Of a stretch of DNA of 64,000 bases, positions 6,545-34,784 are shown piece by piece. Numbering within the stretch: the first letter of the stretch is position 1; each line of letters begins with the position of its first letter. Below the pieces are notes generated by a model. It was not told where the DNA came from and searched no databases. It saw only the letters and a program-made list of their open reading frames with translations. The stretch covers positions 310,001-374,000 of the forward strand of contig JAHNUO010000007.1 of the NCBI GenBank assembly GCA_019787685.1, given 5' to 3'. Origin of the DNA: Chiua virens. Its lineage: Eukaryota; Basidiomycota; Agaricomycetes; Boletales; Boletaceae. Position numbers and translations under genes: made by a program.

Positions 6545-7758
6545 ATGGCCTATCATTCTTGCTCCACACCTGACTTTGAATCCGACACCACACTGCTCCC
6601 CGTCTTCACCCCCACTGTTGATATTCCCCACATTGCCCTACCACTCCCTGTTCCCCTGCCATCACTCCACTCCTTGGATGCTCCCTCCTTCTCCTCCGAA
6701 TCATCCCTCACAGAGTCCACCCAACCCATTTCTCCAGCTGGTTCTGGAGTCACTTCCACAGGATGAGGAACAGCAAGTGTACACACTCGCCCTCCTCATC
6801 ATATTCACCATGTTCATTCTCCTCTCATTGCAGTAGACTTGCCATTTCATTCACACTCTATCTGGGCCTCTTTGCCCACCCCCGACTACTTCACTTGCAT
6901 GTGAGCCCTTATCCTTGACCCCAGTATGGTGTTTCCCATTGAATACCACCTCAACCTCAATTCTCCTCTTGAGGGTGAGTCACTCATTCTGTAAGTATGC
7001 CGCATAGAGGGCATGATGGGCCTATGCCCAACACCCTCCTCCTCTTGGCCCTCACCAGCCAGATCCATGACAAAATCCACACATTCCTTGAACACACCCT
7101 ACACCAAATGCAAATGGGTGAATTCCTCACAGACCTCCACTGCTACCAGGCAGAACTCTCCCTCCGCCTCGACCAATCACTTGCTTCAAATGCTCCCTCC
7201 CTGTCTACCCCCTCTGCCTTCTCTCTTCCCTTCTCCCCTGAAGAGATCAACACTTGCAACCGAGCTGAAGTGGAACATATGTTCCAAACTGGTCAGGTTG
7301 ACCTCCCTGAGTCCCACCCTCGCTACCATGAGGCCTGCTATGAATGCCACAAACTTGGGCACATATGCATCAAATGCCAGGACTACCAATGTCCCATTTG
7401 TCTTACCTGGTCCCCTGGACACATCCAATCTCGCTGCCCCAGATGACCCCCTCGTATCCACGCTAGGGTTCTCCTGGCCAACCGACTTACCCCAGTGGCA
7501 GCCAGATCCACCTGGAACTGTCACTCTCCTCGCCCCATCATCCCCTCCAACTCCTCATTGTCTAATGCCTCCTCATTCTCCTCTACACGCCGCCATGCCT
7601 GCCGCTCTATCCTCCTGGCCCCTTCATGCCACCACCTTTCCAGACACTCATTCACCTCCCCAGATCGCTGCTCTGCATCGCTGTGCAACAACCCAATTGA
7701 CAACGAGGGTTATGCCAACATTACGGGCAGCCCTATTAGGGATTTGTTCGATTTCTAA
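6545..7758 (+). pseudogene. Post-pol ORF with two CCHC zinc knuckles, decayed
   Basis: Plus-strand coding remnant between the integrase-chromodomain fragment and the family B LTR at 7802. The longest open piece (6997-7446) ends with two adjacent zinc-knuckle motifs: CYECHKLGHICIKC (C-x2-C-x3-GH-x4-C) and CPICLTWSPGHIQSRC (C-x2-C-x4-PGH-x4-C). After one in-frame stop (TGA, 7444-7446) the frame continues to 7758 with a Ser/Pro-rich tail. The N-terminal part (6545-6766) is Pro/Ser-rich. A gag zinc knuckle would lie upstream of protease, but this one is downstream of the chromodomain and just before a polypurine tract. It therefore looks like an extra third ORF of the element. I do not know its function; nucleic-acid binding is inferred from the knuckles. 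Confidence 0.6.
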
Positions 7759-11590: not shown

Positions 11591-12205
11591 TGTAGGGAAT
11601 AGGTATTCCCTGTGCTCACATAGCACATTTCCACACCCCATCGTCACCCAATCTCGATCCTGATCTGTCTGCTTGTGTGAACTCATCTGGATTGCTGTAT
11701 CCATGCTCGTTTTGCCTTGGACTCTTTTATTTTATTTTTGATGCTCCTTATTCGTACTTAGCATTGGCTAGACCATGTCACACAGCCCTTGCAGGGACAT
11801 TCAGGTGCCTCTTGAACTTTATACCGTATGAAAACCTTCTTTTTATTATTATCCTTACTTAGGATGAGTCTGAGGGTATTCCTGAGGACTCTAAATTCAC
11901 TGTATTGACAAAATACAGCAGCTTTTGCCCGTGTGCATCTGTCTCACATCATTTTCAGTCGACATTCATTTTCTCTCACTCTCCTCGTATTTTCTTGATC
12001 TAGATCGGACTGCCATGTCCGCCTTTCTATCCATTTTAATCCAGATTTGCCCCAGATTCATCTCGGACTACTCAAAAACCATTTCTTGTCGTTCACCAAC
12101 TCAGTGTTGTCCCTGGGTCGAATAGAATCACATTCCTTCACCCTCTTTCATTTTCTATTTCAATCTCCCTGAGTATTGCACTACAGCTGGGATTTATTAC
12201 CTTCA
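11591..12205 (+). mobile_element. Solo LTR, family C, TSD ATGG
   Basis: 615 bp, starts TGTAGGGAATAGGTATTCCC and ends TTACCTTCA. It is flanked by the 4-bp duplication ATGG (11,587-11,590 and 12,206-12,209). No primer-binding site or internal region follows. Same family as 1682-2294 and 33,899-34,513. Confidence 0.9.
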
Positions 12206-15415: not shown

Positions 15416-17118
15416 TCAACTTCCTGGGGCACTGCTTGCAACCAACCCGGAATCACCAAGTGTGCTGACCTTGCGCTTCCCCCAGCTAACACTTGTCAAC
15501 ATTCTGGAGGATTCATTGGAGCCACATTCCAAAGGCTGCAAGAAGGAAGAAGGGGCAGAGGAAGTGACAGAAACATCATGGGCAGGTGAGAACATGGAAC
15601 TAGACCCAAAAGCCTGGGAAGTGGTCACCATTGCCAAGGTATTTTGACTCAGAATGGTTAAAGATAGATCTAGTGCTGAGGATGTGGGCAAATTGGATGA
15701 TTGTACTGGGTGGCTGGCAGTGAGTTTGGGCATGAATTTAGTACCACGATGTTTGCCACCAGGATAAAAGACATGGGCACCTTTGCTTTGCAATGGCATC
15801 ATATTTGCCATGAGCTCAAACAGATAAAAACCCTTGTCTCTAAAATGGCTTGCACACTTGTGTGACTGTGTGGTACATGGTTAGAATAGGATCATTTTTG
15901 TGCAGCATTGTAGGAGTTAGATACTCCTTATGGTTGTAGGATACCTTTTCCTCACTCTTCATCATGTCCTATCACCTCCTATCTTATCCACCATTGACTT
16001 TGTGTCAGCCCGGTTTCATTCCTAGCATTTACAGATCATCTGAATCCAATCTGAGTCCAATCCAAGTCAATGCGATCCAATCCAGTTTCATTGTACATAT
16101 TCTGCTTCATCTGATTTGACTTGTTCTATTTGATTTGGCCTTATTAAGGTTGTTACTTTTTCCTTTGTTATCTACAAGGTTTGACACTCCTTCTTAAATA
16201 CTCACCCTACATTGATCCTGTACACTTACCTAGGGTCAGATTGCCTTTAACAGTCCTGGGTTGTGTGCAGGACTATAAAACCATGTTTCTAACATAAAAT
16301 ATCATCTTTCTGCATTCAGGAGATCTCCTGCCTACTCTCCTGTGTGTGAGTGAGCTGGATAGCCTTTCTTTTACCTTGTCCTATCATTCCTCCATGTCTC
16401 ATCTACCCAAATCAATCCTCTTGTTGCCTCAACTCCACCCAGATACTTTTTCATCAACTGCTTTTCATTCCAGATTGTTCAGCAGCTCTAGGACTTCTAG
16501 ACAAACCCAAATCCTTCATCCCTTCGAGTATAACCCCCCTTGGGACGAACTTATCACCCCACCTTTCTTCATTTTACCTATTATTTGTTTTCTACAGTGT
16601 GTAGCACTTACCTTGAGATAATCTTTCCAGACCAGATCCGTCTTTTCCCTCCTAGCTCCAGTATCATCACTCCACATAAATCCGGATGCAGCCTTGAGGT
16701 CCACAATGGTGAAGTATTCCTCCTTCAGCTATGATATTTCATAAGATCAGACTTAGATAGCACATATATAGTGCAAAGATAGATGCACATTGGCCCACTT
16801 TGTTTGGCAAGTCGCACCATTCTTCTCACCACCCTGCTGAGTCAACTTGAACTTCACATACAGGTGTTGAGCAGCATTGTTAAAGTATTTCTTTACGAAG
16901 TTGGGCCCATCTGCTGGTAACTGTTCCTTCAAATACAGGACAAGTGCATGCTCTTCTTTATCTGTCCACTTTGCTGGGATTTTTCTTTGATTGGACTTCT
17001 TGAGAGATGGTAATTTGGTAGGATCAATACTACCTTTTGAGCACAGGAAATGACTGGATGACGCACTTGACATTGTGGAGAATGGTAGACAATCAATAAC
17101 CAGAGATTGATTTGTCAT
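15416..17118 (-). pseudogene. Harbinger Myb/SANT-like DNA-binding protein, split by an LTR
   Basis: The N-terminal exon (17,118 down to about 16,753) encodes IPAKWTDKEEHALVLYLKEQ and FNNAAQHLYVKFKLTQQG. This is a Myb/SANT-like helix pattern of the kind seen in the accessory protein of PIF/Harbinger elements, which binds the transposon ends and imports the transposase (known for the family). The Ser/Thr-rich C-terminal exon lies at 15,811-15,416. Between them is a family D LTR (15,909-16,596), so the gene is interrupted. Whether the insertion fell in an intron is not clear. Confidence 0.65.
15909..16596 (+). mobile_element. Solo LTR, family D, inside the Harbinger element
   Basis: 688 bp, starts TGTAGGAGTTAGATACTCC and ends TTTTCTACA. 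TATA-like CTATAAAACC near 16,275. The flanking tetramers are GCAT (left) and GTGT (right). Both can be derived from GCGT by a single CpG deamination, on opposite strands, which would make a decayed 4-bp TSD; this is an inference. Confidence 0.8.
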
Positions 17119-19744: not shown

Positions 19745-21796
19745 AAAGGTACTTATAATCTTGAGTTTTTTTATCCAAGGAAAGGAAAGGGTTGAGAAAA
19801 CAAGAGAGATAGGGGCACATCAAGGGTGTTTTTGGGTGTTCTGAAGCAGTGGATAGCTCCTAAATATAGTGAATAAAGAGTGTATCAGACAGCAAACACA
19901 CTGGCAGAGAAATAGACTTACTAACTTAGACTTTCAATCTGAGGGGTTATTAAGTATTATAGTAAATTTTATATTAATTGGGGGTTGACAAGACAAGGGA
20001 GATGGGAACACACAGAGGGTGTTCTTGGGCATTCTGAAGTGGTGGATAGCTCTTAAATATAGTGAATAAAGAGTGTATCAAATACCAAGCAATCCAGCAG
20101 AGAAATAAACTTACAAGGTCAGATTTTCGATCCAAGAAGGGAAGGGGCTGAGAAGACAAGGGAGATGGGAACACACAGAGGGTATTTTGGGGCATTCTAA
20201 AGTGGTGGATTGGTTCTAACTATAGTGAACAAAGTGTGAATCAGATGGCAAACCAACCAGTAAAGAAATGAACTTCCTAGGTCAGGTTTTTGATCCAAGG
20301 GAAAGTTGAGAAGACAGGGGAGATAGGGGTGCACCAAGGGTGTTTTTGGGCATTCTGAAGTGATAGATAGGTCCTACATATATAAATAGAAAATCTATCA
20401 AACAGTAAACCAACTAGTAGAAAAATGAACATACCAGGTCAGTTTTTCAATCAAAGGGGGTGTTAAGGAGACAAGGAAGATAGGGGTACACCAAGGGTGT
20501 TTCAGGGCATTCTGAAGCAGTGAATATGTAGGTTCTAAATGCACTGAATAGAGTATATATTAGATGGCAAATCAACCAGTGGCAAAATAAACTTACCAGA
20601 TAAAAAATGTTGTTCTAGAGGGGGGAACTGAGAAAACAAGGGAGAGTGGGGTGTGCTAAAAGGTTTTTGGATCATTCTAAAGCAGTGGATAGGTGCTAAA
20701 TAAAACGAGAAAGAAGGGTATGAGATAGCAAGACAACCAGTAGTGAAACAAACCTACCAGATCAAAAATGTTGTCCTAGGGGGAATTAAGGAGACAAGGG
20801 AGAATGGGGTGTGCCAAAATAGGTGCTCAATATAATGAAGAAAGAGGGTGTGAGACAGCAAAACAACCAGTGGCAAAATGAACCTACCAGATCAAAAATA
20901 TTGTCCTAGGGGGAGGTTGAGGAGACAAGGGAGAGTAGGGTATACCAAAAAGGCTTTGGGGCATTCCAAAGCAGTAGATAGGTGCTAGATGAAACAATCA
21001 AACCTTTACAGGCTTAAGTTATTTGCTAGAAGGACAATGAAAATAAGTCAAGGGACTAAAGAGGCTTGGGAAAACTCCAGAAGGACAAGACTGGGTCCTT
21101 CAGTAAGTTAGGGATATCTCTTTTACACTATTCTACTGTTTATACAAGTGTAAGCTAGATCTATAGATATGCTATGCTATGGGACAAAGGTTTGGATGAG
21201 TATAGGGTATATGAATCTAGAATACATAGCCATGGAATGTAATTGCATCATAGACATGAGGGGGGATAGATATAAGAGTAGGCATGAGGTGAGCATATGT
21301 AGAATGGAATAACATACTGTGAGTTTAGAGGGTGTCTGAGGGTTTGTATGGTCTAGACTGATCAAGGATTAGTGGTCCTAGACCATAGCAAGGCCTGGGT
21401 CAATGTATTTAATCATATATCACTTTGTATTTACTAAGCATTCAGTTCCAGAGTTTTAGAAGGTGTGGGAATTTTGGAAACTCCAGAAGCTTGGAAACTC
21501 AGAAGGAAGGAATGCTTATAGCAAGCTCAAATGCAAAGAGAAATATGGAAAAAATAGATGAAAAATAGAGTGATTAGAATAGTATATCGTGTAATTGTAA
21601 CACTAGATATAATGAAGAAAGAGCATGTGAGACAGTGAAACAACCAATGGCAAAATGAACTTGCCAGATTCAAATTTTACTCCAAGGGAGGGGTTGAGGA
21701 GACCTGGGAGACTAGGGGGCACCAAGGATGTTTCAAGTCATTCTGAAGCAGTGGATAGGTGCCAAAGACATTGAATAATGAGTATATGAAGTGGGT
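19745..21796. repeat. Tandem satellite, ~160-bp units
   Basis: A unit containing GAGAAGACAAGGGAGAT, GGGCATTCTGAAG and AGTGAATAAAGAGTGTATCA recurs with anchors at about 19,793, 19,985, 20,148, 20,307, 20,465, 20,628, 20,786, 20,917 and 21,693. Spacing is mostly 158-163 bp; the first interval is longer and the interval after 20,786 is shorter because of a deletion. The array is interrupted at 20,990-21,602 by a solo LTR and ends at the truncated family D LTR. No coding content. Confidence 0.85.
20990..21602 (-). mobile_element. Solo LTR, family E, TSD CTAGA
   Basis: 613 bp, TGAAACAATC...TTGTAACA. It is flanked by the 5-bp duplication CTAGA (20,985-20,989 and 21,603-21,607) and sits inside a satellite unit whose two halves rejoin when it is removed. 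The second copy, itself interrupted, is 33,248-35,154 (+). Reading in the minus direction, a TATA-like motif lies near 21,130. Confidence 0.9.
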
Positions 21797-22238
21797 TATT
21801 CCTAGCGTTTACAGATCATCCGAATCCAATCTGAGTCCAATCCGAGTCAACATGATCCAATCTGGTTCCTTCATATGTATTCCGCTTCATCCAATTTGAC
21901 TTGTTCTACTCAATTTGGCCTTATTAAGGTCATTACTATCCTAACACCTTTTCTTTCTTTGTCATCTACAAGGTTTGACACTCCTTCTTAGCATACTCAC
22001 CCTACGTCAATCCTGTACACTTACTTAGGGTCGGATTACCTTTAACAGTCCTGGGTTATGCCCAGGACTATAAAACCATGTTTCTAACACAAAAATATTG
22101 TCTTTCTGCATTCAGGAGATCTCCTGTTTACTCTCCTGTGTGTGAGTGAGCTGGATAGTTTTTCTTTTACCTCATCCTATCGTTCCTCTGCGTCTTATCT
22201 ACTCGAAACAATACTCTCACGTCCTCGCCTCCACCCGG
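21797..22238 (+). repeat. LTR, family D, left part (5'-truncated)
   Basis: Begins at ATTCCTAGCGTTTACAG, missing roughly the first 120 bp of family D, and runs to CCTCCACCCGG. The rest of the LTR resumes after the family A element at 32,331 (ATACTTTTACATTGACTG). It retains more CpG than the copy at 15,909. Confidence 0.85.
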
Positions 22239-23122
22239 TGAAGAAATTAAAAACGGGCTGGTGTGACAGGAACAGGGTTAGTAGAACTGTCAGATAGAAA
22301 GAAAAGGGATGGGCGCGAGTATGGCTCGTCCCAAGGGGTTCTGAGGTTGGAGACGAAGTGTCAAGGCGTTGACAGGAGCTTTGAAAGCAATCCGGACGCG
22401 TTCCCGGGTGAAACCGTACGAAGGTCGACAAAACCGGCCGAAACGCGGACAGTTGGATAGTTCGGCGACAAGGCAGAGACTCGAGCACAACGGTGATCGA
22501 GTACGAGTAAGGGCGGATAGAGAAGATAGATAACCGGGCGAGGCGACTTAGGACGCGAGAGAAAACGGGGATCGAAAGATGAAATTTTTATTTACGAACA
22601 CAAATTTTATAGTCTCAGGTATTCCCCGGGACTTTTACAGCGGATAAAGTATCGAATAAATAAGGGAAGCGTACGTATACGGAGCCGACTCTCATGGAGA
22701 TCGACCCGTGAAAAGGAAAACAATGTTCTGTCAAGGTGGGATAAGGTTTGATCCGTGAATCAATGGACTACCTTTAAAACGTCGTACGACCCGACTATCC
22801 GTTCCTTATAACCAATCGGATACGTGTCGATAACACGGAACCGTCTAAAAAAAATCTAAGAAGGTACGAAATAAAATAGAAATTGGACAAAAGAGAGTTG
22901 ATTAGTGTACGTCGTGCGATCCCGATCGAGCAACCCGATTCGGTCACCTCGCGCAAAAACGTGTAGGAACGAAGAACAAAACATACGAATATGAGTTGGA
23001 TCCACTCGGATGGACACGGGACCACGACGGACGGGTAGGACAATCGATATGGGCAATCCGGGCATCCTGTAAACAAAGCGGGAACACGGGTTTATCACCT
23101 CAAGGGATCATTGACTCCTACA
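22239..23122 (-). repeat. 3' LTR of the family A element
   Basis: 884 bp, TGAAGAAATT at the left edge and GACTCCTACA at the right. In minus orientation it starts TGTAGGAGTC and contains GACTATAAAATTTG (TATA) followed by GTAAATAAAAATTTC (possible polyadenylation signal). It keeps CpG at the four sites where the 5' LTR has TpG or CpA. Confidence 0.95.
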
Positions 23123-23140
23123 CCCGACAAGGACTTGAAT

Positions 23141-23168
23141 ACTGACTGTCCTCAGTCAGTCACGTGAC
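23141..23168 (+). promoter_or_regulatory. Inverted repeat and CACGTG palindrome upstream of the antisense gene
   Basis: ACTGACTG-TCCT-CAGTCAGT is a perfect 8-bp-arm inverted repeat. It is followed immediately by the palindrome GTCACGTGAC, a CACGTG E-box. Both lie 115-145 bp upstream of the ATG at 23,284, and a weak TATA-like CATTAAAG is about 75 bp upstream. Use as a promoter is inferred from position. Confidence 0.45.
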
Positions 23169-23283
23169 ACCCGCGAACGCTGACCTTGAACCGGTGACTA
23201 GGATCGGCCGCGCATTAAAGCCTCGCGTTGGCCGTCCGTTCTTTCGACAAGTTTACTCCCCTCCCGCTTCGCTACTCGTCACC

Positions 23284-24537
23284 ATGTCTCTTACGTCCCT
23301 CGACTCCATCCTTGCATTCGCAGACTCTCCCGTCGATGAGGCGACTGTCAAGGTTGAGAAGGACCTCACACAAGGAAAGGATCGGATTGCGGCTGTGGCG
23401 CTGGCGGTGCCGGATGATAAGGAGGAGCTGCAAGAAGAACAGGAGGGATGGTGCCAGGAGTGGCAACGGGCTTTGGTACTTCGCGAGTTTCTTAGGGTTG
23501 GTTGGGTATTAACCGGACTTGTAGGAGCATCTAAATACCGCCCTTAGCCAGGCTAAATCGCACGGCATTTCCTGCCGCCTCAGCGACGAGACGGTGAAGA
23601 CGATGCGCGAAGCAACCACGTTTTTTCATAGATGGCAGGGGGAAGTAGCTCAACGCGCGGACGCTCAGAGACAACGAACCGCCTCAGGCAAGGTAACGGG
23701 GGGTGGGTCGTTCGGATCCGCTTCGCTTCTGGGTGATTCGGTCGCGGAGACAGGCAAGACCGTCGAGGTCGAGGCTGGCAGAAAGCGCAAGGTGAGACCG
23801 CTGTTACCTCAGATGTTTCGCTCTGTTAACGGTTCTTTTCAGCGGTCCACTCGTAAGGCCGCTATGGACGAGAGCCCGTGTGACGAGGAGGAGGAGGTGG
23901 TAGTCGAGGGTCCGCTTAAAATTCCAGATCGTATGGTTCACGACCCGGCGTGCGAGATGTGCGCTCGGACTAGTAAGTTGTGCGCAGGGATTCCGGGTCG
24001 CACTTGTGATCCTTGCTTCAAAGCCAAGGCTCGGTGCAACAAGTCAAGTGGTCGGGGCGCTAAGAGTGGGCCGTCGGTTGAGAAGTGGAAACTAGCGGAT
24101 CCGAAGGCCAAGGCTGCAGGTAGGACCTCTCTCCTCGAATCGCATCAACTCGGCTGATCTTTTTCGTAGCGTTACCCGTTATCACGGTTACCATCCCGGC
24201 TCGCAAGGCCGTGGTCGATCCTTCACCCGCGTCTCCTCCGACACCGGATGCGCCCGAGCCGCTCTTCTACGAGTCCAAGCCCGTGTCTCCACTCCCTTTT
24301 CAAGATGGGGGGGAAGGAGTAGAGTCGCCCAAGAAGAAGTCTAAGACTGGCTCGCCGTCTGAGCCTTACGATGGGGCGGACGATATCCGACGCGCTATTC
24401 TCTCTCTAGAGGCGAAGTTCCTGTCGACCAGGTCCTTCTTCAAGGAGCTTCAGGCCCGTGCTTCGGCCATGGAATCGTACGTCGCTTCGCAGCAGGGAGA
24501 ACTGGATAGGGTAAAGCTGGCGTTTGGAATGTCTTGA
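23284..24537 (+). CDS. Antisense Zn2Cys6 zinc-cluster protein carried by the retrotransposon
   Basis: Four exons read as one gene of 367 codons: 23,284-23,475, 23,525-23,791, 23,843-24,119 and 24,170-24,537. The introns are 49, 51 and 50 bp, all GT...AG, with TTAAC branch-like motifs in the first two. Every exon phase closes. The start has a good context (CACCATGTC). The third exon encodes CEMCARTSKLC and CDPCFKAKARC, that is C-x2-C-x6-C-x7-C-x2-C-x6-C, the binuclear zinc-cluster pattern, here in mid-protein and not at the N-terminus. The C-terminal exon has a Pro-rich stretch, a basic PKKKSKTG (possible nuclear signal) and a predicted helical end. The gene lies between pol and the 3' LTR on the opposite strand, convergent with pol. 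A DNA-binding role is inferred. Intact splicing and reading frame argue that it is, or was very recently, functional. Confidence 0.8.
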
Positions 24538-25162
24538 GTCGTTTCCAGCCCGTCCCTACTTGTATGATAGCGTATAGTCGATATCCGTATCCGTGTCCGT
24601 GTCCGTGCCCATGTCCAAGTGAGATCCCTAAGTACGAAAACAAGGATTAGAAGGGTAACAAAACGATACGAATGAAAAGAGATCTGAATGAATGACACCT
24701 GAGCGCGGGGTTCCGCCCGTCTTGTTTTCTTCGGTCATCTATCGCGTCTTTGCCTACTTTTGTAGCCTTTATCGTCTATATCGGTCGAAAGCGGATCGGT
24801 AAAACTATCACCGGGTCAAAACGTGCGTGTGCCCCATCACGCGTTCGAAGACGAAAATCTAGGTATTAGTTCGTTGGGGCAGGAGGGGAAATGGATAGAC
24901 GTCTGTTTTTCTGTTTTTCTGGTTTTTTCTTTATCTACGGTTTTTAGATCTTTTCGGTCTGACTGAGCGAGAAAGCGGAGGATGTGAGTGAGTGAAGTTC
25001 TATGGGGTATCGTAAGACTTTATTATTGGCTCGGATATCATTTTTCTTCGAAATCAAGTACACCGGACGAAACCCGGGGTGAAATAGAGAGCACTGGACT
25101 AAACCCAGGATAGAATAAATACGTATCGGGCGGTATAAGGGGGGGGCGGTAACGACAGAAGG
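24538..25162. other. Convergent 3' region between pol and the antisense gene
   Basis: About 620 bp with no ORF. It contains a (GTGTCC)n-like simple repeat at 24,585-24,615 and a T-rich tract at 24,900-24,945. Both genes must terminate here. Confidence 0.5.
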
Positions 25163-28100
25163 CTAGTCTTGCAAGACATCGCCCTTGTCTTCATCTTCGT
25201 ACTCGACATCTTCCTCAGCATCAGAGTGGTCGTATTCCTCATCGCCTATTCCGGTCAGTTCAGTAACCGGAATAGTGATTTTCGTCTGTGGAAAGTAAGG
25301 TAGCAAGCGAAACGCCGCATACCTCAGTTTCGAAATGGCGCCGTCCAACTCGGCTAGCAGATACGATCCTCCAGTAGTCCTGCGAAGGACCACCATTGGA
25401 CCGAGGTAGCATGGCTTCGTTTTCCGGTTCAGCTCCTTCTCAATCCGCGTATTTCGAACCAAGACGAGGTCACCTGAACTAAACTCTTTCGTCCGTATCC
25501 GGTTCTTGAATCGCGCCTCAAAATCTTTAAGGGACGCAAACCGTGATGCCAAGACGCACTCTCGGATAGAATCGATATCTGTTTGACGCTTTTGGAGCTG
25601 ACGAGCTCTCCAAGCTATCAAGCTTTCACTAGAAACTGGGTCAGCATTAGGAACGGGAACGAGGAATGTTGCCTCTGATAAATCGAACGGAAAAAGCGGC
25701 TCGACACCGTGTACCATAAAGTACGGCGAAAGACCGGTTGCTTTGAGTATAGTGACGCGTTCGGCCCAGAAAACGGAGTGAGCGATCATCGGCCAGCGAA
25801 CTTCCCCTCCCAGGGTACTTTTGACGATGGCCTCCCGGACATCGAGATGACGCCGTTCGACAATGCCGTTCGCCTGAGAGTTGTAAGGGGAAATCCGGAT
25901 ATGGTGGATACCGTATCGGGTAGCCAAGTTGTCGAGTGCCTGTACGAATGCCGGACCGTTGTCCATAATGAGCTCAGAGACGGCTCCCCAACGGCATAGG
26001 ATATCTTCAAAAATAAAAGATGCGATGGAGGACGCATTCTCGGATCGCAACATGCGCCATTCAGGATACGCAGTAAGAGCGCATCGGGCCTGTACAATAT
26101 ACCGGTATCCGCCTGATCGAGGCATTACCATTGTGTCGATGTGGACTTTGTGAAATAGCCCGCCCATAACTGGTACGGTAGGAGGGATATGAAACTTCTG
26201 CGTCTGTCGAATTTGACACTCGTGGCAGGTACGGGTATACCATTTGACGTCATCGATGAGCAGAGGCCACCAGAAACGTAGCAGTAACCGTGTCCGAACC
26301 GAGAAGACGCCTTTGTGTCCAAGGTCGTCATGCGCCTCCTTAATGAGTCCGTAACGGCGTTCTCTTGGCACGACTAACTGGTATCTGCCATGCGGTTCTC
26401 GACGATAGAGAGATCCGTTTAGAAGGAAGAACCGGGTCGCGGAATTAACGAAGGAGGTGAAGTTGCGATCTGTCAAATCCGGAGGATGGACCCGGTCGTC
26501 GAGGAATAGGTGAATCTGATCAATGCGCGCTTCTTTTGCCAGAGCTTTGGGGGAGCGGGGGATAACCGGTTCTGGTTCGGCCGGTTCTGCCATAGGGGAA
26601 ACAAATACGGATACGGATTGGAAGGAATGTGTGATGGAATGTCTGTTAATGTGAGCAAACCGACCCGGTGGTGACAACCGGTCGTTTAACAATGCCATAG
26701 AGAAGGAATATGCTTGGTCCAACCAATCCTCGAAATCATCCTCTTCGGGAGGGTCATTCTCGGATGGTGGACGACGAGAGAGTCCGTCTGCGCCAGTATG
26801 TCGGGTAGCAGGGACGTGAACGAGGTGAAAGTTGAATAACAAAATGCCCGCGATCCACCTATTAATGGTCGCGTTGGGCTGGAGGTCCGGGTTATTGATC
26901 ATACCCTTAACGTATTTCGCGTCGACTTCCACTGTGAAATTGGCAACACCGAACACGAATATCCGGACTGCTCGCAAAGCGCGGAACAATCCGTACAGCT
27001 CCAGTTTGGCCTGAGAGTAGCGGCTCTCGACCTCTGTGAGACTAATTGAACCGAAGCGGTTCGGGTACCTCTTGCCGTCATCTCCTTCCTGCGACAAGAT
27101 ATAGCCAACCGCGATGTACGACGTATCCACTGCAAGGATAACCTCGTTCCCGGATTCGTAATCCAGGCGACGAAGAGCAGGGGAGTGACAGATCGCATCC
27201 TTGAGACGCAGCATAGCAATTTGCTGGGGTTCTCCCCATTCGAAAGAGACGCTCTTTCGGGTCAAGTTGACCAACGGTCGAGCAATCGTAGCAAAATTTT
27301 TGATGAAAATTCGAAGAACACCGCACACACCTAAGAATCCGCGTACTTGCGTAAGGTTCTGACACTCGGGCCAGTCGCGGATTTTTTGTACCTTCTTCTC
27401 GTGAGGGATACGGCCATCAGCCGTACACTTGTGTCCGACTATGGTCGCGTCTGGTGCTGCGAGTACGAATTTCTTAGCGGATACCGTTACTCCGACGTTT
27501 TGTAGTCGTTGTAGGATGCGATGGACTACGAGGAGGTGCTCCCAGATGAAGCGACGAATACCCGAATTTTCTGCGATGGTTTCGTAAGAGCCATCCGAAT
27601 TTTGGTAGCGGGTCGAGACTGTTTTGACCGGCAGATCATCTATGAATGGATAGGTATAACGAGGTATCTCGTCCTGCAAAATAAACGACATGTCGGCCTG
27701 ATAGATTTGTACCGCGTTTGTGTACCCCATGGGTACCGTAGTGAGCCGGTGCGGACCCATTGGACTGTTGAAAGTGGTGAGGTTGCGTGAATCCGGGTGT
27801 AATGGACGTTGGTCGTATCCGGCAAACAAGTCCATCATCCCGTATACTGCATATCCGGCAAAAGATTCCGCGAAGTGTTCGACAAGGGGTGGGGTAGAAG
27901 AGTCGCAGATTGTGACTGCGTTCAGCGGCTGCAAGTCGTGGACGAGTCGTAGCGATTTACCGTCCTGTTTTAGGACGCAAAACCACCGCGATCGATAGGC
28001 AGATGTCGAGGGTTCATACACACCGGACGCAATCCGGTCCTTGATAATCTGGATCGTGTCAGCCCACATTGCAGGGGGAACTGGGATGTTTCGCAGTATC

Positions 28101-28564
28101 CAAGGCGTATGAGGTATGGTAGGAATTTTGACAGGGGGAAAATATTGTTCGAGGAGACGGCCCCGCTCGGTCGGTATCCAAGCAAAGGCCGTTTCGTGTT
28201 CGCGGACGATCCATCGGATTAATTTGACTTCTTCTGGCCATAGCCAGTTAGCCGGGTCAAGATCTAAAGCATCAGCACGTTCCTGTGTGAAACGTTGTCC
28301 AGGGGTAAAGTCGGGTGGATGAGTAGGTAAAGGTTTCAGTCCGGCGATAGGATCGTCCGGCAGAGATCGCGTGATATGAAACTCCTCCCCGGTAGGAACA
28401 ACTACCGACCGAACTTTACGTGCTACCGGTTTATAAACCAGCGCGTGCGAAATGGTATCATACGAATAAACAGAAGTGATAGCGGAAAGAACGTCCGGAT
28501 TAGGGTCTGTACGCGTGGATGACAAAAATGGGTAATCGGTCGAAGGCGGGACTGGTCCGATCAA
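25163..28564 (-). CDS. pol: Ty3/gypsy pol: reverse transcriptase, RNase H, integrase
   Basis: 1133 residues, no internal stops. Reverse transcriptase occupies about residues 150-420, with KSLRLVHDLQPLN, FAGYDQRPLHPDSR and the catalytic box FIDDLPV (FxDD in place of the usual YxDD). RNase H follows with VDTSYIAVGYIL, KLELYGLFRAL and VEVDAKYVKGMI. The integrase has an HHCC zinc region (DDLGHKGVFSVR then CHECQIRQ), catalytic residues in KVHIDTMVMP, LIMDNGPAF and GIVERRHLDVREAI, and a C-terminal GDLVLVRNTRIE block. It ends in an acidic tail (DAEEDVEYEDEDKGD), with no chromodomain. It copies element RNA into DNA and inserts it. The frame starts 133 nt after the gag stop, so it may need its own initiation or reinitiation. 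Apparently functional. Confidence 0.95.
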   Translation of the reverse strand: MIGPVPPSTDYPFLSSTRTDPNPDVLSAITSVYSYDTISHALVYKPVARKVRSVVVPTGEEFHITRSLPDDPIAGLKPLPTHPPDFTPGQRFTQERADALDLDPANWLWPEEVKLIRWIVREHETAFAWIPTERGRLLEQYFPPVKIPTIPHTPWILRNIPVPPAMWADTIQIIKDRIASGVYEPSTSAYRSRWFCVLKQDGKSLRLVHDLQPLNAVTICDSSTPPLVEHFAESFAGYAVYGMMDLFAGYDQRPLHPDSRNLTTFNSPMGPHRLTTVPMGYTNAVQIYQADMSFILQDEIPRYTYPFIDDLPVKTVSTRYQNSDGSYETIAENSGIRRFIWEHLLVVHRILQRLQNVGVTVSAKKFVLAAPDATIVGHKCTADGRIPHEKKVQKIRDWPECQNLTQVRGFLGVCGVLRIFIKNFATIARPLVNLTRKSVSFEWGEPQQIAMLRLKDAICHSPALRRLDYESGNEVILAVDTSYIAVGYILSQEGDDGKRYPNRFGSISLTEVESRYSQAKLELYGLFRALRAVRIFVFGVANFTVEVDAKYVKGMINNPDLQPNATINRWIAGILLFNFHLVHVPATRHTGADGLSRRPPSENDPPEEDDFEDWLDQAYSFSMALLNDRLSPPGRFAHINRHSITHSFQSVSVFVSPMAEPAEPEPVIPRSPKALAKEARIDQIHLFLDDRVHPPDLTDRNFTSFVNSATRFFLLNGSLYRREPHGRYQLVVPRERRYGLIKEAHDDLGHKGVFSVRTRLLLRFWWPLLIDDVKWYTRTCHECQIRQTQKFHIPPTVPVMGGLFHKVHIDTMVMPRSGGYRYIVQARCALTAYPEWRMLRSENASSIASFIFEDILCRWGAVSELIMDNGPAFVQALDNLATRYGIHHIRISPYNSQANGIVERRHLDVREAIVKSTLGGEVRWPMIAHSVFWAERVTILKATGLSPYFMVHGVEPLFPFDLSEATFLVPVPNADPVSSESLIAWRARQLQKRQTDIDSIRECVLASRFASLKDFEARFKNRIRTKEFSSGDLVLVRNTRIEKELNRKTKPCYLGPMVVLRRTTGGSYLLAELDGAISKLRYAAFRLLPYFPQTKITIPVTELTGIGDEEYDHSDAEEDVEYEDEDKGDVLQD

Positions 28565-28697
28565 AAGAGGCGGAAGCCGTGTGTAAGAAGTCGGGAAATA
28601 GAGAGATGAAACGAATGACGGTTTTAAAAAAACGAAACCGGATGCGACGCGGATAGAAGATTGAAATCTCCCCGATTGGTATACGGATCATCGATAG

Positions 28698-30969
28698 CTA
28701 AAAACCCAAGTCCATTTCGACGACGGTCTGATGGCTGTTACACTGTTTCTTTTCTCGGCAACGGGGGCATCCTTCCGTCCACGCCCGAGTAGACAAAGAG
28801 AATTGCTTCCCCGTGTTAGGGTCGCGCAGCGTAATCATCTGTGCTCCATCCGGGTAATCGTCAGTAGTCGCACTCATAAGACAATGAAACGGTCGTCCGA
28901 GCAATAGATCAAAGTTTGCCCTGGCCAAAATCTGGACCTGTAGCATCACTTCGCCCGTACCAAAGTCTACGGATAGGTCCTCCAGTACCCCCACTGTTTT
29001 GTCAACGCTTGTGTTGGCGGATGACATATTCATTGTGTGATCCGACCGAATTGGGATACCGAGTGTCTCCCAGATACGTTTGGGCATCGCGACAATCTCG
29101 GACCCAGAGTCCAAGACGCATCGGATGGGTCGTCCGGATTCTCCTATCTTGGCCTCGATTGACCGAAGGGGAAGACTGTGATGCGCCACTATGAGTCTGT
29201 CGTCGTTTCTGTTTATCCGGTCGCCGTATTCGCGTTCGATTGCAAACGGGTCGAGACCCGCGAGCTTGTTTACCTGCACAGCCTGAGTGGATAGGTTAGT
29301 CGTTACTCGTTTAGTGGTGGTAAGGTCCCGAAATTGCTTTCGGAACTCTGGTGCTACCGCAAATAAATCTTTAACGGGCACAGGTATGCTCGTATCCAGG
29401 ACTCGGTCCAACACTCGTTGTGGAGCTGAGTCATCCTCGAGCGGAAACGAGTACCTATATTGCGTCGTAGGGTTAAACGAAGGGTTAGTTTGTGCTGCGC
29501 GGGAAGGAGGATTGCTATTGTCGTTGGCACGACTAGAAGAAGAAGAACCGGACGGTCCGGCTATTGCGGATGCGGGTGCGGGTGACGAGGCCGGTGGGGA
29601 GCGTGATGGCGTAGATGATGATGATGATTTGGGGTTAGCTTCTTTGGCGGTCTGTAACTCTGGCGAGATGATCTCCTCAGACACCGTGGCCGACCGACTG
29701 TTTAGTTTCCGAGGTGGCATATATACGCCGTCAAACCGGACACGTTTACCCTTTTCCTTGGTCGCCTTATCTGCCTGGAATGTAGCCCAAGCCTGTGCAA
29801 TGTAGGGCTGGAAATCCGGGTCGGCTACTACGGATAGAGGTTCGCTTTCCTCGTCCGTTTCCGTGAGTGCAAAGGCGGCCGGTTCGATGTCTAGGACCGC
29901 TGGTGTTCCCGGATGCGCGGATGATAGAATGCCTGCCGTGATATGTGGGGGTAAGTCCCTGGTAGTACTGCTGGATGACGTGGATGTGACAGGGGGGTGA
30001 ACCGGTTGGCTATTAGCCCATGCGTAGTCGACACCGTCCTTGAAACATTGTCCGCCCGGCGCTCGAGGGATGTTAGAGCCATCCGGCATGTAGAGCTTGT
30101 TATCAGACCCTCTGACCACCTTCGCCATATTGAGGTATTCGATGCAGATGGGGCAAGAACGCATATAATGGCCGGGTCCACCGCAGAACTTGCAAGCGGA
30201 CGAAGTACGTGAGGTTTGGTTTGTCTCTACCTTCACTGTTGGGGCCGGCGAGTATGAGGGAATAGGTGCGGTTGGTCGATACGTTGATGCGGGTGGTGCG
30301 GGTATTTGAGCTGGTTGACGTGGCGGTTGATATGTAGAGGTGAACGGGGGGGGACTGAGCGTGGGGGTGAATGTCGGGCGAAATGTAGAACCCGTTAGGA
30401 GAAAAGTGGCCGCCTTCGTGGAATCATCCATGGAATACGGGTCGTTAGGGTGGTGATCCGGTAGTATGATGCGTAACCGGTCACGGATCTCCTGCTGTAG
30501 CTCAGGTGGGAACCCATTTAGGTATAGGCCATTACGGTCGATGTCTGAGATTTTTTGGTTAGCAATTAATACGGAGGAGACCTTACGGAATGCTCGAGTA
30601 TATTCCCCGAGCTCATCCTGGTTACGCATCTGCCCGCCGTGACACTTCTGAGCCAAGTACTCGAGGTCTGCGCGACCATATCGGTTCGTACCCTCACATC
30701 CCGGGTATAGTTTTTTAACCGCTGACACGAATGCGTCCCAATCCATCGGGTTGGCCGTTGTTTCTGGCAGGGTTTGCCAGACCTCGGCTTCATCTAGGGC
30801 CGCGTAGCGTAACGCAGCTTTTACCTTGTTCGTCGGGGTAAGACCAGCCGCGTCGCCAAGGAATTCTATGTCCTCCAGGTAACGCGGTAACTCGGACGGC
30901 GTTTTTTCCGTCAAATTTAGGGGCATTGGGTGTGCCTCGTAAAGGCATCTGGAAGGGTTGTTGTGCCAT
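28698..30969 (-). CDS. gag: Ty3/gypsy gag-protease, with a 1-nt frame offset near the start
   Basis: The open frame from the ATG at 30,926 gives 742 residues. It has a capsid-like region (SELPRYLEDIEFLGDAAGL, AALDEAEVWQTLPE, LYPGCEGTNRYGRADLEYL), a CCHC knuckle CKFCGGPGHYMRSC and a retropepsin with CVLDSGSEIVAMP and LLLGRPFHCL. Upstream, another frame starting at an ATG at 30,969 reads MAQQPFQMPLRGTPNAPKFD and meets the main frame at a run of six A. The family gag that I recognise begins MPLRG..NAPKFDGKTP, so the true protein probably spans both frames, with one base too many in the A-run. This could be a mutation, an assembly error or programmed slippage. Everything else in the ORF is intact. 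Confidence 0.85.
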
Positions 30970-31418
30970 CGGGTTCTGTAGAGGTGGGGTAGGACAAGAC
31001 GGTTGCGAAGGTGACGATACGGTTCGAGAAGGGGATGTAGGGGACGGGTTAAGTAGAGAAAATAAAGAAACGGAGGAAGAGGATTTAGAAGATGGTTTAG
31101 AAGGGGTAGAGGAATGCGAGGACGGTAACGAAGGAAGAGTTGTTAGAGGAGATAGATCAGGGTCGGGTGAACGGTATCGAGTAAAAGAGGCTTCCAGTTC
31201 AGAAGGAAAATTAGTAAAACCGCCCGGGACAACGGGTGAATCGGGTGAACGTAGTGTGAAGGAGTCAATGCGGTTATGCCGCGCTCTATCCGGGGTAACC
31301 GAAGTAAAAAGCTCGGTATTGGCAGAGATATCCGGATTTCTAAGACTTGAGAGTAGCTCGTCTACCTCTAGTCGCTCTGGTGTAGGCCTGAGCGATCTCG
31401 TCCTGACAACCTAAAAAA

Positions 31419-31440
31419 GAACCCCTCGCGGTGGGCTCCA
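31419..31440 (-). other. Primer-binding site of the family A element
   Basis: Minus strand: TGGAGCCCACCGCGAGGGGT, two bases inside the 5' LTR. The complementary tRNA 3' end would read ...GGTGGGCTCCA, with U73 before CCA and a CTCGC T-stem strand. A U73 discriminator fits tRNA-Cys, but the tRNA is not identified here. Confidence 0.65.
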
Positions 31441-31442
31441 GT

Positions 31443-32326
31443 TGAAGAAATTAAAAACGGGCTGGTGTGACAGGAACAGGGTTAGTAGAACTGTCAGATA
31501 GAAAGAAAAGGGATGGGCGCGAGTATGGCTCGTCCCAAGGGGTTCTGAGGTTGGAGACGAAGTGTCAAGGCGTTGACAGGAGCTTTGAAAGCAATCCGGA
31601 CGCGTTCCCGGGTGAAACCGTACGAAGGTCGACAAAACCGGCCGAAATGCGGACAGTTGGATAGTTCGGCGACAAGGCAGAGACTCGAGCACAACGGTGA
31701 TCGAGTACGAGTAAGGGCGGATAGAGAAGATAGATAACCGGGCGAGGCGACTTAGGACGCGAGAGAAAACGGGGATCGAAAGATGAAATTTTTATTTACG
31801 AACACAAATTTTATAGTCTCAGGTATTCCCCGGGACTTTTACAGCGGATAAAGTATCGAATAAATAAGGGAAGCGTACGTATACGGAGCCGACTCTCATG
31901 GAGATCGACCCGTGAAAAGGAAAACAATGTTCTGTCAAGGTGGGATAAGGTTTGATCCGTGAATCAATGGACTACCTTTAAAACGTCGTATGACCCGACT
32001 ATCCGTTCCTTATAACCAATCGGATACGTGTCGATAACACGGAACCGTCTAAAAAAAATCTAAGAAGGTATGAAATAAAATAGAAATTGGACAAAAGAGA
32101 GTTGATTAGTGTACGTCGTGCGATCCCGATCGAGCAACCCGATTCGGTCACCTCGCGCAAAAACGTGTAGGAACGAAGAACAAAACATACGAATATGAGT
32201 TGGATCCACTCGGATGGACACAGGACCACGACGGACGGGTAGGACAATCGATATGGGCAATCCGGGCATCCTGTAAACAAAGCGGGAACACGGGTTTATC
32301 ACCTCAAGGGATCATTGACTCCTACA
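31443..32326 (-). repeat. 5' LTR of the family A element
   Basis: 884 bp. It differs from the 3' LTR at about positions 31,649, 31,990, 32,070 and 32,222 by my comparison. Each difference is TpG or CpA here where the other copy has CpG. The right edge CTCCTACA is followed by the TSD CCGG. Confidence 0.95.
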
Positions 32327-32330
32327 CCGG

Positions 32331-32485
32331 ATACTTTTACATTGACTGCTTTTCATTCCGGATCGTTCACCAGCCTCTAGGACTCTTAGACAAACCTGAA
32401 TCCATCATTCCTTCAAATATAACCCCCCTTGGGACAAACCTATCGCCCCACCTTTCTTCTTATTGCCTATTATTTCTTTTCTACA
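32331..32485 (+). repeat. LTR, family D, right part
   Basis: Continuation of 21,797-22,238 after the family A insertion, from ATACTTTTACATTGACTG to TTTTCTACA. Joining the two halves across one copy of CCGG gives the same order as in the family D LTR at 5821-6527. Confidence 0.85.
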
Positions 32486-33439: not shown

Positions 33440-34784
33440 TGTTACGATAGGTCCAGGTAGGCCCTAGCGTAGCCGCAAAAGCGCTAAGGATCAAGTGGCT
33501 ATGATAACTTGAACAACCACCACTTGATACGTGGCATGCTGTAAGAGTTCAAGGAGTACTGCTGTTAGCATATTGCCAACAGTGGAGACGAGTTAGAACT
33601 CAGGCGTTGCTGAGAGCGTCCTGATGGGAATCTATACCTGAAGAACCAAGGGTCTTCCTCTTGCGATCGAGGTGGAACCTAGGCATTGGCTGTAGGTATC
33701 GAGGGTCGAGAGTCAAGGAGGTCTCAGGGGGTTCCCGAGTTGAGGCAGTGATACTCAGCTAGATTGCGGAGATCAAGACTAGTGTACATGAGTATTGCTG
33801 CGAGGTATTTATACTATGCGAATCGTGCATGGACCAAGTAACTAAAAGGGATAGGCCAGAAGAGCGGAAGAGCGACAGGCCAAAAGGGAAGTGCATGGTG
33901 AAGATAATATATCCCGGCTGTAGTGCAATACTCAGGGGGATTGAAAGAATAGAAAAGAGAGTGAAGGAATGCAATTCTGTTTGACCCAGGGACAACACTG
34001 AGTTGGTGAACGACAAGAAATGGTTTTTGAGTAGTCCAAGATGAATCTGGGGCGAATCCGGATTAAAACGGATAGAAAGGCGGACACGGCAGTCCGAACC
34101 GGATCAAGAAAATACGAGGAGAGTGAGAGAAAATGAACGTCGACCGAAAATGATGTGAGACAGATGCGCACGGGAAAAAGCTACTGTATTTTGTCAATAC
34201 AGTGAATTTATAGTCCTCAGGAATACCCTCAGACTTGTCCTAAGTAAGGATAATAATAAAAAAAGAAGGTTTTCATACAGTATAAAGTTCGAGAGGCACC
34301 CAAATGTCCCTGCAAGGGCTGCATGACATGGTCTAGCCAATGCTAAGTACAAATAAGGAGCATCAAAAATAAAATAAAAGAGTCCGAGGCAAAATGGGCG
34401 CGGATACAGCAATCCGGATGAGTTCGCACAAGCAGACAGATCAGGATCGGGATCAGGTGACAACAGGGTGCAGAAATGTGCTATGCGAGCACAGGGAATA
34501 CCTATTCCCTACAACGGTATCCAAAAGGGGTGGCCAAGAAGAGCAGAATGGAAGAAGGGCCAAAAGGGAAATCGTACGATGCGAAGGCAATGGATGATGA
34601 TGAAGATGAAATGACTAAGTGTGATGCCATCGGATGATGATGAGAAAGAAAAGAGTAAGCAACAGGTAATGCCAATGCTGGTTTCATAGAGTTAAACATG
34701 TATGGATGAGCATACAGAGATACCTAGGTATCAAGTAAAGCAAAGTAGTACGAGTGAAACAAAGAAAAGAAAGAAATCGTAACA
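33440..34784 (-). mobile_element. Solo LTR, family B' variant, TSD CCCTC, inside LTR E
   Basis: Minus orientation TGTTACGATTTC...CCTATCGTAACA. The TSD CCCTC occurs at 33,435-33,439 and 34,785-34,789. A stretch of about 60 bp around CCAAAAGG..GGCCAAGAAGAGC is present on both sides of the inner family C LTR, which hints at an internal duplication. Confidence 0.9.
33899..34513 (-). mobile_element. Solo LTR, family C, TSD ATGG/ACGG, inside LTR B'
   Basis: 615 bp, same length as the family C LTR at 11,591. Flanks are ATGG (33,895-33,898) and ACGG (34,514-34,517), one CpG transition apart. It is the innermost of three nested LTRs. Confidence 0.85.

Follow-up and report, generated by a model that had tools for sequence, protein, structure and literature searches.

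The window studied here, a stretch of 64,000 nucleotides from the genome of the fungus Chiua virens (contig JAHNUO010000007.1 of assembly GCA_019787685.1, forward strand, positions 310,001 to 374,000), contains a Ty3/gypsy-type retrotransposon with long terminal repeats (LTRs), here called family A, which carries an additional gene between pol and its 3' LTR, on the strand opposite to gag and pol. That this antisense gene is spliced and under selection is well supported by its copies across the genome and by a second family, B, that lacks pol and keeps a diverged version of it. Judging from sequence, we think it probable that a Ty3/gypsy-type lineage has long carried it as a true accessory gene, whose product would act in trans as a nuclear regulator on DNA.

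A spliced gene antisense to gag and pol

On the plus strand, at window positions 23284-24537, four exons join into 367 codons and a stop, with three GT-AG introns between them; gag and pol both lie on the minus strand. The exons, introns, junctions and frame of the original prediction, made from the letters of this DNA alone, proved exact to the base, and its placement of the gene antisense between pol and the 3' LTR is confirmed by the gag and pol open reading frames (ORFs) together with the LTR pair. Coding on the sense strand of the element was ruled out, as no minus-strand ORF of at least 100 amino acids lies across 23284-24537. Eight splice combinations within the scanned ranges leave the frame open (361-374 amino acids), and the exact junctions thus rest on conservation.

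The antisense gene has 43 DNA matches in the genome (48.3 Mb, 136 contigs), including 26 of full length, at 80-100% identity; the 26 full-length copies (L009-L034) were analysed and the 17 partial matches left out. The frame is open in ten, interrupted by nonsense codons only in six, and frameshifted in ten. All 26 retain the introns, and 154 of 156 splice sites are present, every one GT or AG; the two missing sites are deleted donors (L033 intron 1, L034 intron 2). Over the non-CpG columns of families A and B, none of 24 splice-site columns is variable, but 64 of the 222 remaining intron columns are (Fisher P=0.0005, an approximate value since the copies are related). An element that replicates by way of RNA would be expected to shed its introns; the survival of these introns through transposition, proposed in the original prediction, is borne out by their presence in every full-length copy. 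We suggest that they persist because only their reverse complement would be present in the genomic RNA, the template for reverse transcription.

To relate the gene to the element, pol matches were listed as well: 48 in all, with 41 of 667 first-look candidates scored, so that the counts are lower bounds. The 31 copies reaching residue 1073 or beyond were used (the 17 that do not reach it were dropped), comprising 21 at 76-100% identity and ten at 48-50%. Among the matches listed, the gene lies within 3 kb downstream of pol in 19 of the 21 related copies, and in all 19 it is antisense; at least two of the 19 have partial gene matches only. A single chance capture, which absence from the other family A copies would have indicated, is thus rejected on the 43 matches, the 19 related pol copies and the stop-free frames of families A and B.

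For the 48-50% pol family, none of the ten listed copies has the antisense gene within 3 kb, and in two of them (L048, L049) the best match to the proteins of family A, family B and Suillus had an E value no lower than 0.058; there, pol ends near base 180, and the two copies remain alike to about base 640. This family is found on contigs C18, C27, C12, C25, C10, C8, C23 and C15 of the genome (G000), and six of its ten listed copies stand in a 2002-2003-amino-acid frame, some with an internal stop. A 333-amino-acid frame resembling WD40 repeats by eye (L048:2396-3394, minus strand) lies downstream of a family C element.

A relative without pol keeps its own version

A protein search with the antisense product gave distant matches, three of which (L037-L039) belong to a second LTR element, family B. 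In L038 the only clear homology of gag is to residues 11-190 of family A gag, at 47-48% identity, and there is neither a pol nor room for one; family B, as seen in L038, is a gag-carrying LTR element without pol. Three ORF pieces from L038 and L037 matched no Pfam family. The antisense homolog in L038 starts about 154 bp inside the 3' LTR (161 bp in family A), and both families have the stretch following the 5' LTR, ACTGGAGCCCACCGCGAGGGG, and the LTR start, TGTAGGAGT. The genome holds 53 matches to family B, a number similar to the 43 of family A; in the 12 loci read, one of them partial, four frames are open and all covered splice sites are GT or AG. With the primer site common to both families and a similar 3' junction, family B probably uses enzymes of the family A type and retains a version of the gene for itself.

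The two antisense proteins share 30% amino acid identity, and their genes agree in structure: each has intron phases 0, 0 and 1 and an exon 2 of 267 nt, and intron 1 falls at the identical alignment column, with introns 2 and 3 offset by three columns in poorly aligned stretches. The cysteine spacing, C-x2-C-x6-C-x7-C-x2-C-x6-C, is identical, and PKKKSK of family A aligns with PKKKQK of family B. Over 350 aligned codons the nucleotide identity is 47%, ranging from 36% at third codon positions to 56% at second ones. Neither frame has a stop (367 and 372 codons), while each of 500 neutral simulations to the same divergence acquired at least three (mean 12.2).

At L035:3139-3663 lies a further relative, 27% identical to the antisense protein, that has no close copy elsewhere in the genome. 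Its 7-kb locus showed no homology to family A gag or pol and no direct repeat; it is open through the place of intron 3, and its motif has x8 where family A has x7. It may be a relic or a host-resident copy.

Constraint on the reading frame

Variants were split by frequency into shared ones and singletons, with CpG sites excluded, in order to part recent decay from change in the active lineage; the tests of omega treat sites as independent, leave the ancestral state unassigned and involve small numbers. CpG sites account for 182 of the 240 shared biallelic exon variants in family A and, when only the best 20 copies are taken, for 155 of 181. Shared non-CpG variants in the 26 copies comprise 23 nonsynonymous (N) and 22 synonymous (S) changes (omega ~0.36, P=0.0003), and singletons 73 N, 36 S and 5 nonsense changes (0.85, P=0.25). 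Family B behaves likewise over its 12 loci, with 39 N, 35 S and 2 nonsense among shared variants (~0.49, P=0.002) and 43 N, 25 S and 2 nonsense among singletons (0.81, P=0.26). In both families it is the shared variants that show constraint on the frame; the singletons are close to neutral. A stricter CpG rule leaves 13 shared sites in the best 20 family A copies and gives an omega of 0.21 (P=0.017). When gene, gag and pol were compared by the same script on shared non-CpG sites of 10-kb loci, omega was 0.28 for the gene (P=0.021), 0.32 for gag and 0.35 for pol, from 20, 18 and 20 copies respectively, with singleton values of 0.99, 0.76 and 0.77. Eight of ten wrong-frame tests on shared sites gave 0.94-2.13. 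A ratio near one among copies, which the original prediction named as a refuting result, is found only when CpG sites are included; the shared non-CpG sites show purifying selection. Together with the related pol copies that carry the gene and the intron phases shared with family B, this agrees with the proposal of a stable accessory gene rather than a single capture.

As a separate matter, the concentration of shared differences among L009-L034 at CpG sites suggests methylation-linked repeat decay in the host fungus.

The predicted protein

The Zn2Cys6 family (PF00172) is recognised by six cysteines in the pattern CX2CX6CX5-12CX2CX6-8C, and residues 190-218 of the family A protein have this spacing, which occurred in none of 200,000 shuffles of the 367-residue protein. 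The same spacing as in family A is found, by eye, in family B and in the Suillus protein P0002, and P0001 is without the first cysteine. Zn2Cys6 clusters have basic residues between the second and third cysteines; the residues there are ARTSKL in family A, EGAGYP in family B and IKVKKE in P0002. Basic stretches (RKRKR, PKKKSK) are also present. A sequence search of the PDB gave a single match, at E 2.1, taken as chance. The Zn2Cys6 identity claimed in the original prediction is weakened, since membership rests on the cysteine spacing only, and the label is best held as zinc-cluster-like.

Homologs outside Chiua virens were few: the full-length search gave one match and a search with a three-sequence alignment seven, including that one, all from Suillus paluster; both searches scored the 7996 candidates sharing most words, and relatives elsewhere may be missed. 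A search with residues 1-115 found no homolog. Two of the seven (P0006 and P0007) have an extra stretch, starting VSD, at the expected place of intron 1, which could be intron 1 retained in the gene prediction. With seven homologs in one species among those candidates, the suggestion that such genes are a source of the large Zn2Cys6 families of Agaricomycetes is unsupported.

A conserved block beside the LTR

The interval from the LTR to the ATG differs widely between family A and L038 (64 of 128 positions identical) except for a 24-bp block, at which 23 of 24 positions agree. The arms of its inverted repeat are 8 bp in family A (a length reached by 1.3% of shuffles) and 7 bp in L038 (4.3%); at the outer arm pair both sides have changed between family A and L038/L039, and L037 has changed on one side only. 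Among 20 family A copies the block is unchanged in 12, altered only at the CpG of its CACGTG core in five and altered otherwise in three. The block pattern recurs exactly at 34 places in the genome, 17 adjoining family A copies and 17 adjoining family B copies (by eye); the free base in the 17 family B matches is G in 13, A in three and T in one. A scan for bacterial promoters and terminators found nothing, this type of scan not being suited to a fungus.

The host element and its insertion site

The family A element spans 22239-32326 (Table 1). Its reverse transcriptase, RNase H and integrase stand in the Ty3/gypsy order, with an LTR pair and a primer site; DUF4100, aspartyl protease, RNase H and integrase zinc domains score above the Pfam cut-offs, and RVT_1 and rve in pol just under them. 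The LTRs align over 886 bp with four mismatches, and CCGG stands on the outer side of each, as read from the element ends. The element splits an older repeat (21798-22236 and 32327-32485), an element-free copy of which lies 5.8 kb leftward; this copy, at 16018-16596, agrees with the sequence left of the element as far as 22236 and with that to its right from 32327 onward, and so shows the insertion to be clean. The element is young. The primer-site core has 74 matches in the genome. Elsewhere in the window, diverged tandem repeats spaced roughly 160-190 bp occupy 19764-20983, and an inverted repeat pair (11591-12205 and 33899-34513; 617 bp, 91% identical) flanks the element region.

Table 1. 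Features of the antisense gene and its element (window coordinates, unless a locus is named)
Feature	Position	Strand	Remarks
3' LTR, family A	22239..23122	-	TG...CA limits read from LTR ends
24-bp block common to families A and B	23144..23167	+	inverted repeat (23141-23160) plus TCACGTGA
Exon 1	23284..23475	+	ATG start, 64 codons; ATG kept in 26/26 copies
Intron 1	23476..23524	+	49 bp, phase 0
Exon 2	23525..23791	+	length as in family B
Intron 2	23792..23842	+	51 bp, phase 0
Exon 3	23843..24119	+	contains six-Cys motif
Six-Cys motif	23951..24037	+	coordinates derived from the exon model
Intron 3	24120..24169	+	50 bp, phase 1
Exon 4	24170..24537	+	PKKKSK at residues 299-304; coil-like C-terminal end (by eye); stop 24535-24537
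pol ORF	25163..28564	-	1133 aa; reverse transcriptase, RNase H, integrase
gag ORF	28698..30926	-	742 aa; zinc knuckle and aspartyl protease
Primer-site stretch next to 5' LTR	31422..31442	-	identical in family B
5' LTR, family A	31443..32326	-	TG...CA limits read from LTR ends
LTRs of family B (L038)	1593-2281 and 6622-7310		689 bp, 99.3% identical

A proposed regulator in trans and its alternatives

The basic stretches, the cysteine motif, the coil-like end and the palindrome beside the LTR lead us to a model in which the gene encodes a regulator. Its promoter would lie in the roughly 160 bp between the 3' LTR and the ATG, which hold the palindrome/E-box block, and the spliced mRNA would run from the 3' LTR side toward pol. 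We would expect a nuclear product, combining a conserved N-terminal region with a zinc-cluster-like motif, basic stretches and a coil-like end. Dimer formation is probable, as is action in trans on the DNA of the element next to the LTR, either at the 24-bp block or at the LTR itself, by which transcription of the element would be tuned.

A number of observations weigh against this reading. Among the matches listed, two of the 21 related pol copies have no gene nearby. Five of the 26 copies (L010, L014, L017, L019, L020) have TGA at codon 115, a CpG change at a codon that reads CGA, CAA or CCA in the other 21; since the compared LTR parts of L010 differ at only 3 of 544 sites, either its stop postdates the insertion or protein from another source allowed this copy to move, and the need for the gene in cis is therefore not strict. 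Over all sites, N/S in family A is 0.77-0.95 of neutral; we dropped this as a test of selection because most shared variants are CpG changes, mostly recurrent decay, and still count it here. CpG sites alone give 0.91 for the gene (gag 0.88, pol 0.92), so that constraint is visible only without them, on few shared sites (45 in family A, 76 in family B). The opposite-strand frame whose third positions coincide with those of the gene scores 0.43 (P=0.0075) and 0.58 (P=0.014), and one wrong frame in family A has low singletons (0.66, P=0.025). As regards the protein, Pfam Zn_clus matched none of the family A, family B, P0001 and P0002 proteins at E<=1, and the structure model of exon 3 has a mean predicted local distance difference test score (pLDDT) of 51.7, too weak for a fold search. 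The 24-bp block, finally, could instead serve reverse transcription or packaging.

The main rival accepts that the gene is selected and has its protein serve the retrotransposition cycle instead of transcription, for instance in nuclear import, integration targeting or RNA handling. Constraint equal to that on gag and pol speaks for it, as does the pol-less family B, which retains just part of gag, the primer site and this gene, as expected if every mobile copy uses the protein; however, the adjoining palindrome/E-box block and the basic stretches fit a DNA-binding regulator equally well or better, and the cysteine cluster and the coil do not decide between the two. We regard this role as rather unlikely. 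The antisense transcript might also act as RNA, for instance as double-stranded RNA that silences or modulates the element, with an incidental frame; such a role has been considered for plant antisense ORFs (PMC7264820), and N/S over all sites comes close to neutrality. The conserved splice sites, intron phases and cysteine spacing, and a constraint specific to the frame in both families, make this quite improbable.

Two further explanations concern origin. Broken frames in 16 of 26 family A copies, and a diverged relative (L035) with no LTR or gag detected, would fit a host gene captured long ago and now carried as a neutral passenger; yet the broken copies carry changes of the singleton, post-insertion type, and none of the 500 neutral simulations kept two stop-free frames at 47% nucleotide identity, which leaves this reading very improbable. 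Least probable of those considered is that families A and B captured descendants of a common host gene independently: their 30% amino acid identity is low, as this would predict, but the gene has the same place and orientation, at a near-equal distance from the LTR, in elements that share the 24-bp block, the primer site and gag homology.

Returning to the proposed regulator in trans, we put forward a wider interpretation only tentatively: that a fungal LTR lineage encodes its own intron-bearing antisense transcription regulator, of a logic like that of HBZ but evolved separately, that a diverged version of it, with a palindromic target next to the LTR, is kept both by autonomous members and by those without pol, and that the introns may have lasted through antisense coding.

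Relation to known antisense genes

Antisense ORFs between pol and the 3' LTR (aORF-3R) are described for maize Grande (gene23), rice RIRE2, Silene Retand and bean PvRetro13, and Grande has its own antisense promoter (PMC7264820). The gene in Chiua virens resembles them in position, orientation, presence in most copies and conservation like that of other element proteins; it differs in its fungal host, its three conserved introns and its six-cysteine motif, and the word 'intron' is absent, by term count, from the main text of PMC7264820 and PMC11963269. The TRP28 antisense ORFs of Retand have a domain predicted to bind DNA, which PMC11963269 describes from flowering plants only; the gene studied here has no Pfam match to TRP28. 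In fungi, the Boty-like elements of Botrytis cinerea have an additional antisense gene, brtn (Zhao et al. 2011, as cited in PMC7264820 and PMC8365987), which by description is likewise an antisense extra gene of an LTR element. Human T-cell leukaemia virus type 1 (HTLV-1) produces spliced antisense transcripts from its 3' LTR that encode the transcription regulator HBZ (PMC1459196); HBZ is retroviral, and the likeness is one of logic only. Family B further recalls non-autonomous LTR elements of the TR-GAG type, with LTRs and part of gag and no pol, and differs from them in also carrying the antisense gene. In literature titles and abstracts, most subscription journals being outside the coverage, we found no intron-bearing antisense gene in a fungal LTR element, and none with several introns conserved across element families or kept by a pol-less family.

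Three introns kept with their phases in two families at such low protein identity show, in one genome, that an antisense gene can escape the intron loss expected of a retroelement. A pol-less element that retains the gene makes the use of that gene to the element testable, and the system would be a fungal counterpart, in logic, to the antisense regulators of retroviruses.
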